DNA of 64,000 bases from Norana najaformis (Eukaryota; Annelida; Clitellata; Crassiclitellata; Hormogastridae): assembly GCA_964023275.1 (NCBI GenBank), contig OZ029928.1:14798802-14862801 (forward strand). Direction: 5' to 3'. This document shows positions 27,801 to 33,800 of this stretch, one piece after another. The stretch's first letter is position 1, and each line of letters starts with the position of its first letter. The notes beneath the pieces were generated by a model. The model saw nothing but the letters and a program-made list of their open reading frames with translations. It did no database searches and was not told the origin of the DNA. The translations under genes were made by a program, and so were the position numbers.

Positions 27801-30800
27801 ATAATGATAATGATGACAACGGCGACTCAGTGATTGCGTGAAACACGTGAAAAAAGCATAAACCCGTAATGAATCCTAAAATTAGACAGGCTAAGCAAAT
27901 GATCAATTAGTTGTCTCCAGACGCCAACAGGCGGACGCATTGTCTTCTAACGTCTGCGATGATGTAATAGATCAATTCCAATGAGTTGTTATTGAGCTTA
28001 CCTGATTGGCCCAGATTCCGGACTCATTTGCACCTGTTCTATGTTGTGCTGCGTATAGCGATCGCAAATGTTTTTCCATGCATGGATAGAACCTGGCTCT
28101 CCTCTCCAGGACCTGGAAAATACGACAGCTCAACACGTAATGGACTATCGTAATCGTAAGCTCGAGATTTCTACAGCGCCCAACGAAAGCTAAGTCGCGG
28201 GAATCAGCTTATTCACAGGCTCTCAGTCAAAACAAAATTGATAGACAGGAAAGGTTTGGTTCCAGGTCAAGATCCAAGAGGCAGGCAGGCAGGCAGGCAG
28301 GCAGGCAGACAGGCAGGCAGGCAGGGCAGGCAGACAGGCAGGCAGGCAGGCAGGCAGGCAGGCAGGCAGGCAGGCAGGCAGGCAGGCAGGCAGGCAGGCA
28401 GGCAGGCAGGCAGGCAGGCAGGCAGGCAGGCAGGCAGGCAGGCAGCTATGGTGAATGGTGTTTGGAATTGATAAAGAATGTGAGAAAAGGGGAAAAAGGA
28501 AGAATCAGGTTAGGATTTGTGGAAGAGGAGTGTTTTCAGTTTTGAGTGAAAGACTTGCTCAGAGATTGCAAGAGGTGAAGTGTTGGTAACTATGTTGTCG
28601 TGAAATGCGGGCAAGGCGATGATGACATTGGTTCTTAACACAAATGTAGATTTTGTCAATTAGTTTATTTGAACTAATGTCGTTTGTTTTAACTTGTCAC
28701 AACCATATTATTCATTTGTAATGCCGGACTATCATTATTATCAGCATGACGGAGCTGGCTGGCCTTGTTAGCTACGTTGGTTAACGCTTACGTCAAGGCT
28801 CCTCTGAGCGAGAGGATGCCGGTTCGCGTCCTGGCGGTTGCTTACTTCAGATATTTGAAACTCTAGCTAGCATGGTCGGCACACGAGGACTTTAAATGGC
28901 GTGGCGCCCATTCAAACGGGCAGCGGTGGTGAAGGATCTCACCTGATAATTCAATGAAAAATGAGCAGGGTCGAGGCCATACGGTCGCTATTGAAAAATG
29001 TGTTTACAGTTACATTTTACTAATTTGCACACGACTATCTTTAAAAAAGAGAGAGACAGAGAAAGACAGAGAGACAAGAAGGAAGAAAAGGGATCTGCTG
29101 ATTGGGGTGTGGATGGGGTAGAGACGGCTGACTGACAGGGTAGGTGAAAGATGAGAAAGAAGGAATGAAGTTAAAAGCAGGCGAAGTTGGGTAGAATATG
29201 GCTTCGCAAAAAGAACGGATTCGGACTTACATTTCGGTTTGAATGAAAGCCTCTGTCTCTCAACGAAATGCCGTTGGCGATATGTAGATACACCATGTTG
29301 TTCTAAAATATCACCAGGTACCATAATATTATATGACATGCAGTAATGTAAGGTAAGGTAATATGATGTGATGTGCCACAAATCCCCAAAACTAGATTAC
29401 ATTACATGGTCACGTGTTACTGACTGTAACAAACAAAAGTAAAGAAGCCCAAATTGATAAATGAAATATAGTAAGTCGGCAGAATAGAAGGTTATGTCCT
29501 CAAGCACACTGTGTCTGATTATTATACAAAACACTGTGCATAGTTACATACCAGACACTATTTATGTAGATAGGTAAGTAGGTAGCCAGGCAGGCAGGCA
29601 AGTAAGTTAGCAAGTAAGCGGAAGAAAGAGGGCGACAAACGACTAGACCACGGAAACGACCAGACTCTTTTGGAATCCAATAATCAACACCTGAATATCA
29701 CAAGATCAAGTGAATTCCAGAGAGTTTGGATGAATAAATTTCATGGATGGATGGATAAATAGATGGAAGGAAGTAAGGAAGAATAGATTGGATGGATGGA
29801 TGAATGGCTGGCTGGCTGGATGGATGGATGGATGAATGGCTGGCTGGCTGGATGAATGGATGGATGAATGGATGGATGGATGAATAAATAGATGGATGGA
29901 TAGATGGATGGATGGATGGATGGATGGATGAATGGATAGATGGATTGATAAATGTATGATGGCAATATCGATAGTAGCCTGCTGTTAAGTTGCTTCATAA
30001 ACTGAGCCCTTTTTGTGCACTCGGTTAAACCGATGACCGAATAATCAAATCGTTGGCAGATGAGCAGTCTACCTGGCTACCTGAACAATATCTGGACCAA
30101 TCAATCGCTTTACTACATAAGTCCTCCGTTGAACTAATTAGTCCCTGGTGACCCCGTCAGGTCACCGGCAGCCGTTATCTAGGACTCCGTGGAACTAATT
30201 AGTCCCAGGTGACCCCCTTTGGGTCACCGTGAGCCATTATCAAGCACTGAGCAATTAAATTGGCATTCTCAATTAGCAATAGAACATTTTATCCTCTATT
30301 TGTTTGCGTGCTGTTTGCGCCAGAGCGCGTGCAGCTCTTTGTTCGGAGTAACGGCCAAAGATCGAAAACAACGTTGAATGAATGAATGAATGCATGAATG
30401 CATGAATGAATGAATGAATGAATGCATGAATGCATGAATGCATGAATGCATGAATGCATGAATGCATGAATGAATGAATGAATGAATATTAAGAGATTAA
30501 CGTGCCAGGCATAAAAGTTTTAATCAGAGGCACGGTCAGTTGCTCAGAGGGAGACAGCCAGTAGCAAAGGAGGAAAAATAGGCGATAGGTGAATTAACAA
30601 AATAAAAAATTATAAGTTGCCGCGTGAAGGATGAGATTGTAATCCTAAGGACAAGGAGAAGGAGGAAGAGGAAGACAAGGAGAAGGAAGAGGATAAGAAG
30701 AAAGAGGACAAGGGGAAAGATGGGAGGACAAGAAGATAAAGGCGTAGGAGGAAGACAAGGAGAAGGACCAGACAGACAGACAGACATACATACATACATA

Positions 30801-33800
30801 CATACATACATACATACATACATACATACATACATACAAACGTAGGTATGTACATACATACATGTACACATACATACATGCATGAATATATACCTACATA
30901 CATACACAAACAGACAGACAAACTTACATACAGACAGACAGACAGACATACAGACAGACATACATACATACATATATACAAACGTAGGTATGTACATACA
31001 TACATGCGCACATACATACATGCATGAATACATACCTACATACATACACAAACAGACAGACAGACAGACAACAAAAAGAAATTATTCGTAGTAAGCAACG
31101 GATGCAGAAGAAGAAAAAAGAGAAATGGAAGATGGACCATTATATCTGGACATTCCTGAAGCGGTAATTAGTCTTCCAGGAACAAAGTCAAAGGACACCA
31201 GATCATGTATCAAACGTATCGATCAGCTAAGCGCTTGCACAGGTGATCGATAATAGACGCCTTTCGGTTAGGATCGCCGTTACCATGACGACGCGTAAGC
31301 ACACTTAAGCCATACCCAATGCAATTTGTACATCGACTAAAGTATACTAGGCCAACATAAGTAGTTTACAGATACTTATAAGACACTTCTGAAGGCTGAG
31401 TGATTACTATATATACTAAGTATCTTCAGTTCAATGTACACCTGTAGGCCTTCACAATGGTCCATAGTTTCACTAAACCGCAGCATTGGTTGAATAAACT
31501 AAGAATATTATTAATGGCGGCTGCCAAGTTTGAAGTTAAATCACAGATGTAATCATAAACCAATTAGGCGCAATGACAATCCAATCTGATCCAGGTTGAG
31601 ATGCATCTTCAAGAAAACTGGAAATGCTTCGTGAAAAGACTTAGTCAAGCTATCAACCCAAGTAGAGTCATACTTTCGTGAAAACCGTGAAAAGACTTGG
31701 CCAAGCTATCAACCCAAGTCGTATATTAAATACACCATTAATTGCGGAATATAAAAAGAGATAACAAACGAATGACCGAACTTGAAATTTAAAAAAATTG
31801 AGCAAATGGAGCAATTAGTCAATCAATCTAATAATAATATCTTTCGATCAATCAGCTAAGTAGTCAACAATTTTTTTCTATTGGAATCGATCGGTTCATC
31901 GCTGTATTCACTCATCATTCGACCCGTTCCTGTCCTACACGTCCACCTGTCTATCAGTTCATCCGACCGTCCGTCTATCAAACAGTCCATCCATCCATCC
32001 ATCCATACATCTATCCATCCATCCTTCCTCCATCCATCCATCTTCCCTCCAATCCTTCCATCGATCGATACCTGCATCCATCCATCCACCCGTCCACCCA
32101 CCTATCCACTCACCAATCCACCCATCCATCAAACATCCATCTATCCACTCACCAACCCACCCATTAATCCATCCATTCATCCATCTATCCATCCATCCAT
32201 CCATTCTTCTTCCTTCCTTCCTTCCTACCATTCATCCACTCACCAATCCATCCATCCTTCGATACAGCTATCCACCCATTTATCTAGCCATCCATCCATT
32301 TATCCTTCTATCCATTCATCCATCCATCCATTTATTCAACCAATTCTCTGGAACTCACAGGATCCTGGGATATCCAGGTGTTCGTAATTGGATCCCAGAG
32401 GAGTCTGGTCGGTTTCCGCGATCCAGTCGGATTGTTTCTTCCTTCTTCCCACTCCAGGAGTTTCTCATCCGTTTCTTCTGCGATCATTCCGTAGTGCAGC
32501 AGAGGAAGTGGAGCGATGTCCACAGATTCCTCTTCCGTTATCCACCTGGATAAATCCAGGCCGTAGGCATCGTTTCTGCTTCCATCGCCTGGATGCAAAA
32601 ACCTTTCGCCGACAGGCTTACCCTTCTAAGAAAGAAAGCAATACTATATTAATTGTCAAGCTATACATACATACATACATACATACATACATACATACAT
32701 ACATACATGCATACATACATACATACATACATACATGCATACATATATACATACTTAAATACATATACACATGCAAACATAGATACATGTTCGCATGATA
32801 CATTCATACGTACAAACATATATAAACACATACATACAGTCGGAAAGAAGGACTGGCAAGGCAGAATAGAGGAAAGAAGGAATGCATCATAAATAAAGTG
32901 AAAGATGCATATCATTCATTCATTCATTCATTCATTCAATCATTCAGTCATTCAGTTAGTCAGTCAGTCAGTCAGTCCGTCAGTCAGTCAGTCAATCAGT
33001 CATTCATTCATTCAGTAAGTCATTCATTCAATGTCATTCATTCATTCGGTCATTCATTCATTCAGTCAGTCAGGCATTGACTTAATCAGGCAGTCACTAA
33101 GGCAGTCAGCCAGACATCAGCATGCCTGCCTTAAGTTAATGAGCCAGTCAGCCACCCAGCTAGCCAGTCAATCAACTATCCAATCAGTCATTCAGCTACT
33201 CAGCGTCAGTACTCACTGGGTGCCCTCTATCTTGATCAGAAGCCGACACTTGGGAGTCAGTCACGTGGCGGATGTTTCTACGACGACGATGATGCCCTTC
33301 CCCGAACCTTCCGAAGAAATTCGAGGAACTGTAAGACTTGAGGAAAGAGAAACGGTACGGGACCAAGGGGTCATCGTCGGGGTCAGGAATCGGAGGGTCA
33401 GTGTCATACACTACCCGACAGATCGTTGGTAAAGTAGGCATTGGCTGAATGCTAATTAATCGAATCTTTTGACTTCTATGGCGACTCTATCCTTTGACTT
33501 CTATGGCGACTCTATCTTTTGACTTCTATGGCGACTCTATCTTTTGACTTCTATGGCGACTCTATCTTTTGACTTCTATGGCGACTCTATCTTTTGACTT
33601 CTATGGCGACTCTATCTTTTGACTTCTATGGCGACTCTATCTTTTGACTTCTATGGCGACTCTATCTTTTGACTTCTATGGCGACTCTATCTTTTGACTT
33701 CTATGGCGACTCTATCTTTTGACTTCTATGGCGAATCTTTTGACTTCTATGGCGACTCTATCAACCTCAAAAAGCAGCAAGCAATGGTGCGCCAAACCCT

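Follow-up and report, generated by a model that had tools for sequence, protein, structure and literature searches.

Inverted repeat of an exon end and its 5' splice site within the following intron of a predicted Norana najaformis gene

A 64,000-nucleotide stretch of the genome of the annelid Norana najaformis (GCA_964023275.1, contig OZ029928.1, positions 14,798,802 to 14,862,801; hereafter the window) carries a predicted gene on the minus strand in which the end of one exon, here called exon B, recurs in opposite orientation in the intron that follows it. The copy takes in the 5' splice site of the exon and the start of the intron, and it is confirmed as a real inverted copy by alignment. 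The pair is best explained (with a probability of about 0.68) as an old local inverted duplication of the end of exon B that has left a putative exon-intron hairpin, with the exon still spliced largely normally.

The inverted copy and the predicted gene

The features on which the analysis rests are as follows, with window coordinates, strand and, in brackets, the basis of each assignment.

33217..33444, minus strand: predicted exon A, 76 codons, phase 0, upstream of exon B (splice signals and open frame)
32359..32625, minus strand: predicted exon B, 89 codons, phase 0 at both ends (acceptor TTTCTTTCTTAG, donor GTGAGT directly after exonic CCT, one of three frames open)
32353..32358, minus strand: 5' splice site GTGAGT of exon B, within the duplicated segment (pairs with 29710-29715 in the minimum free energy fold)
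32330..32449, minus strand: arm 1, unique part, made up of the final ~90 nt of exon B, the donor and 29 nt of intron (81% identity to arm 2 over 101 bp)
31986..32331, minus strand: arm 1 array, TCCA on the plus strand and TGGA in the transcript (repeat listing and array alignment)
29743..29949, plus strand: arm 2 array, ATGG (repeat listing and array alignment)
29620..29739, plus strand: arm 2, unique part, a flipped and decayed copy of arm 1 (alignment; stop codon, indels, GTGAAT for GTGAGT)
28002..28112, minus strand: predicted exon C, 37 codons, phase 0, downstream of exon B (splice signals and open frame)
22650..22827, minus strand: predicted exon D, 178 nt, phase 0 at its start, assigned to the same gene (splice signals and frame)

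Window positions 29600-29745 on the plus strand were aligned with the reverse complement of 32320-32480, with the tetranucleotide arrays excluded. In this alignment 29620-29739 matches 32449-32330 with a local score of 106, compared with a maximum of 27 among 2000 shuffles, and a chance match driven by the arrays is thus rejected. With blastn, the arms outside the arrays are 81.2% identical over 101 bp (29640-29739 / 32429-32330; E 8e-21, 90.6 bits). The copied segment originates inside predicted exon B, crosses the donor, continues through 29 intron bases and then enters an array, and no homology is found by alignment beyond either end of the segment. The two arms are 2,591 bp apart, and in the predicted gene model arm 2 falls between exons B and C. 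The original prediction, made by inspection of the bases, had claimed an inverted copy of the exon end and donor and had named chance-level similarity outside the arrays as its refutation; the copy stands far above chance there. Only the start that it gave, 29615, needs correction, as the unique homology runs from about 29620.

The gene is itself a prediction, in which exons A, B, C and D have AG acceptors, GT donors and phase-0 joins and contain no stop on the minus strand. Pfam searches with exons A and B or their open frames taken one at a time and with the four exons joined found no family above cut-off (best E for the joined protein 0.041, below the cut-off of the family matched), and PDB searches with exon B singly and with the four exons joined found no convincing match (best joined E 0.65). 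Because neither database gave anything usable, the gene is left unnamed. The exon B protein has a single match in the 608 Mb, 17-contig genome, which is its own locus (2 candidates scored).

The original prediction also held that a (GGAT)-type repeat recurs along with the copy. Arrays are indeed present in both arms; their shared descent is likely, but not firmly established. The arm 1 and arm 2 arrays align with a score of 155, where shuffles of 4-base units average 119 and 1/500 equals the real score, and at the array starts the real score is equalled by 15/500, 93/500 and 111/500 unit shuffles for the first 40, 60 and 80 bases respectively. Similar arrays are common genome-wide (92 matches to a 371-bp query). 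It is because array-start shuffles often equal the real score, and because such arrays are so abundant in the genome, that homology of the two adjoining arrays is rated as likely and no higher. The locus as a whole is rich in repeats. The window also has a 951-bp TCCA array at 19268-20218 (98% matches), whose sequence complements that of the arm 2 array and which may belong to the same transcription unit.

Predicted pairing of the two arms

The unique parts of the two arms are predicted to form a duplex of -156 kcal/mol, whereas 200 shuffles of arm 1 average -52 and reach -73 at most, and with the arrays included the predicted duplex reaches -453 kcal/mol. In the minimum free energy (MFE) fold of 29500-32700 (3.2 kb, transcript sense), 102/120 unique arm bases and 6/6 donor bases pair with the copy; when the copy is masked, the energy changes from -1171 to -933. 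A smaller partition-function model gives the donor an unpaired probability of 0.705-0.971 without the copy and of at most 0.002 with it. Burial of the 5' splice site in a long duplex, as originally proposed, is therefore upheld at the level of prediction. The exon end near the 5' splice site pairs with the downstream intron in these models, which is the predicted arrangement of a substrate of the editing complementary sequence (ECS) type. Folded singly, 121-nt pieces of the two arms have ordinary stability (z -0.31 and -1.21).

The exon B donor was also compared with other donor-like sites, by scanning 120-nt segments at GTRAGT sites against the next 3.4 kb, with 55 sites taken in random order. 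The top three are exon B (-150.5) and two sites located in exon B's own array (-160.4 and -135.3), and none of the remaining 52 goes beyond -89.6. The donors of exons A, C and D reach -73, -63 and -61, respectively, in the same scan.

Copy number, decay and origin

Inverted pairs were identified using blastn with low-complexity masking, at a length of at least 80 bp and a distance of at most 5 kb, and copy number was compared over 264 kb, consisting of the window plus 20 stretches of 10 kb (21 sequences). Five inverted pairs pass the filter in the window, the exon B pair among them. Both exon B arms match only themselves and their partner in the 264 kb (2 matches each), and thus do not belong to a multicopy family there. 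One arm was tested from each of the other four window pairs, and these are found at 12-28 places in 4-12 of the 21 sequences, identifying them as repeat families. The 20 sampled 10-kb stretches contain five inverted pairs, in five stretches, and three of the five tested arms are local only (2-3 matches). Local inverted duplications therefore belong to the background of this genome, and the special feature of the exon B pair is where it landed, not that a local inverted duplication exists. Among 11 predicted exons or exon-bearing stretches tested with 100-bp flanks (several boundaries being approximate), exon B is the only one whose coding sequence is inversely copied in the window, the remaining matches in these tests being tandem units or repeats in the flanks. 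At the genome level, arm 2 DNA finds only itself (1 candidate), in a search that missed the exon B partner at 81%. The claim that no simple transposon explains the copy agrees with what is seen in the examined sequence; an inverted transposon pair is disfavoured by copy number, although at the genome level the DNA search does not have the reach to 81% identity. Separately, a dispersed short repeat family occurs in both orientations in the window (1551-1797, 5673-5922, 16942-17174, 22940-23155, 28147-28296 and 55121-55296), and the members of some inverted pairs of this family are within 5 kb of each other.

The two arms differ at 22 of 120 aligned columns, with mismatches at 8/30, 2/31 and 9/30 of first, second and third codon positions and at 3/29 intron positions. 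In arm 2, a TGG codon has become an in-frame TGA stop, three single-base indels have occurred in the coding part, and the donor GTGAGT (32358-32353) reads GTGAAT (29710-29715). Given these changes and the opposite strand of arm 2, a duplicated or mutually exclusive exon is rejected. Tests for constraint within the arm pair are not significant, whether for codon-position bias (p 0.09), for exon versus intron (p 0.27) or for transitions that keep wobble pairs (8/13, p 0.29), and selection on pairing is neither demonstrated nor excluded by these within-pair data.

It is unlikely that arm 2 is a selected intronic ECS that directs adenosine-to-inosine (A-to-I) recoding in exon B, delays its splicing, or both, in the style of Gria2 and para. 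In its favor, the layout is as in Gria2 R/G (PMC4761006) and para/mle-napts (PMC4710571), the strong duplex includes the donor and is an outlier among the 55 sampled donor-like sites, and divergence is lower at second codon positions (2/31) and intron columns (3/29). The arm spacing of 2,591 bp also compares with the limit of 2,500 bp from the editing site within which a fly study sought intronic ECSs (PMC5319793). However, none of the p values given above is significant, and the arm is broken by indels and mismatches. That the inverted exon-end duplication is now, or is becoming, an intronic regulatory arm, which would slow exon B splicing through a long-range hairpin and direct A-to-I recoding, with expansion of the arrays lengthening the stem, is distinctly unlikely.

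Some retroelements carry 3' tails that resemble the (GGAT)n tail next to unique sequence. Two insertions of a tetranucleotide-tailed dispersed element might accordingly account for the arms, one insertion having been recruited as the 3' end of exon B: unique sequence abuts such a tail in both copies, the genome has many such arrays, and the window has many dispersed repeats. The copy number makes this quite improbable, however, as the arms match only each other in the 264 kb, and both the copy DNA and the exon protein have a single genome match. A circular-RNA or exon-skipping device, in which complementary sequences join the ends of exon B, is very unlikely. Arrays flanking the exon are predicted to pair (32912-33113 with 30371-30487 at -110 kcal/mol, and 32663-32838 with 30772-31048 at -124 kcal/mol), but they are of the ordinary tetranucleotide type that is common in the window. 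The arrangement described for back-splicing has complementary sequences in both introns flanking an exon (PMC12093144), whereas here arm 1 itself takes in the exon end and donor and arm 2 lies downstream, so that the flanking introns are not joined. Since the arm pair does not flank exon B, back-splicing is disfavoured, contrary to the suggestion in the original prediction that it could be favoured, and circular RNA formed by this arm pair is rejected on geometry. An assembly artefact, or chance similarity arising from the arrays, might be suspected in a repeat-rich locus, but is scarcely credible given the margin of the alignment over its shuffles (106 compared with a maximum of 27) and the 19% divergence with indels, which would be unexpected for a mis-join.

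In the local duplication explanation, ~120 bp of unique sequence (exon B end, 5' splice site and intron start) would have been copied in one local inverted duplication, presumably through one template-switch or fold-back event, and part of the adjoining tetranucleotide array was probably copied along with it. The copy would have come to lie on the opposite strand of the same intron, 2.6 kb downstream; it is unusable as an exon in that orientation and has decayed. In the pre-mRNA, the arms are predicted to form a hairpin with a loop of ~2.0-2.6 kb that covers the donor. They probably pair in at least some transcripts, which would make them a plausible ADAR substrate, and the paired arms may be edited. 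Splicing of exon B would nevertheless be largely normal, because the donor may be recognisable ahead of transcription of the distant copy, or because the duplex may be opened by helicases. We judge the pair most likely to be a relic, neutral or close to neutral, that still folds.

Several observations weigh against this explanation or the predicted pairing. Exon columns differ at 19/91 and intron columns at 3/29; the difference is not significant (Fisher 0.27), but fewer differences in the intron than in the exon are contrary to simple neutral decay on both sides. The genome DNA search is insensitive near ~80% identity, and a diverged third copy could escape it. Masking the copy in the 3.2 kb MFE fold leaves the donor paired, now within exon B, so that in this model burial can occur even when the copy is absent, and the MFE and partition-function models conflict over the accessibility of the donor in that situation. 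The array at 19268-20218 pairs better with the arm 2 array (-349) than the arm 1 array does (-279), and the array part of arm 2 alone therefore has no specificity for arm 1. Finally, the fold models omit transcription order and proteins.

Surroundings and related exon-intron hairpins

Other repeats in the window lie close to exon boundaries or reading frames. A 25-bp unit is repeated 12 times at 33464-33762, ending ~20 nt upstream of the exon A acceptor; in the same predicted gene, a further array thus sits right next to a splice site. On the plus strand, a 43-bp unit is repeated 5.8 times at 59916-60163 and includes an apparent acceptor (ttctgaag) plus the first ~13 nt of an exon of a glutamate-receptor-like gene; a 3' splice site together with the exon start thus appears to be multiplied in tandem there. 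A rhodopsin-family G protein-coupled receptor is encoded in a single open frame at 39212-40597 on the minus strand (Pfam 7tm_1, E 7e-44), and a 48-bp tandem repeat (38995-39161) adjoins the stop side of this frame.

Matches to the adenosine-deaminase domain PF02137 are found 19 times at five genome loci (C16, C14, C12, C4 and C9), representing ADAR or ADAD/ADAT1 relatives. One of these PF02137 loci shares its contig with the window, at a distance of ~2.7 Mb. As the layout matches and adenosine-deaminase domains are present in the genome, the exon B hairpin could work like the hairpins of Gria2 and para. In Gria2 (GluA2), the R/G editing site is at -2 from the exon-intron boundary and its ECS is located in the intron that follows; base-pairing of this ECS with the end of the exon may compete with U1 at the donor (PMC4761006). 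Exon B is similar in that the exon end and 5' splice site region would pair with the next downstream intron. It differs in that the arms are ~2.6 kb apart and extend into arrays, and in that arm 2 is a recognisable decayed duplicate of the exon and donor; Gria2 is edited, whereas the exon B hairpin is known from sequence alone. In Drosophila para (mle-napts), splice sites are likewise proposed to be held in a hairpin, which is also an ADAR target, and the helicase MLE is proposed to unwind it, making splice sites accessible (PMC4710571). The exon B locus is a different gene, again known only as sequence, and the origin by inverted duplication is visible there.

The arms also resemble inverted Alu pairs in introns, in which long intramolecular double-stranded RNA arises from inverted copies (PMC12093144, PMC2533698); unlike Alu pairs, they are not dispersed in the examined sequence, one of them includes coding sequence and a donor, and they do not flank the exon. 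Competing RNA structures at mutually exclusive exons are similar in that pairing is created by duplication of exon and intron (PMC6071210), but those duplications are tandem and the exons usable, whereas the exon B copy is inverted and unusable as an exon. Among the titles and abstract beginnings listed for the terms used in an open-access library, none describes an inverted exon-end copy in a downstream intron. To our knowledge, sequence seldom reveals how the intronic partner strands of edited or structure-regulated exons arose. At exon B the source of the partner strand is plain, being the exon's own end and donor copied in reverse. If RNA were to show editing or donor retention, the locus would directly illustrate the birth of such an arm by local inverted duplication; if RNA showed neither, the locus would be an example of a strong predicted donor-burying duplex that is carried without consequence.

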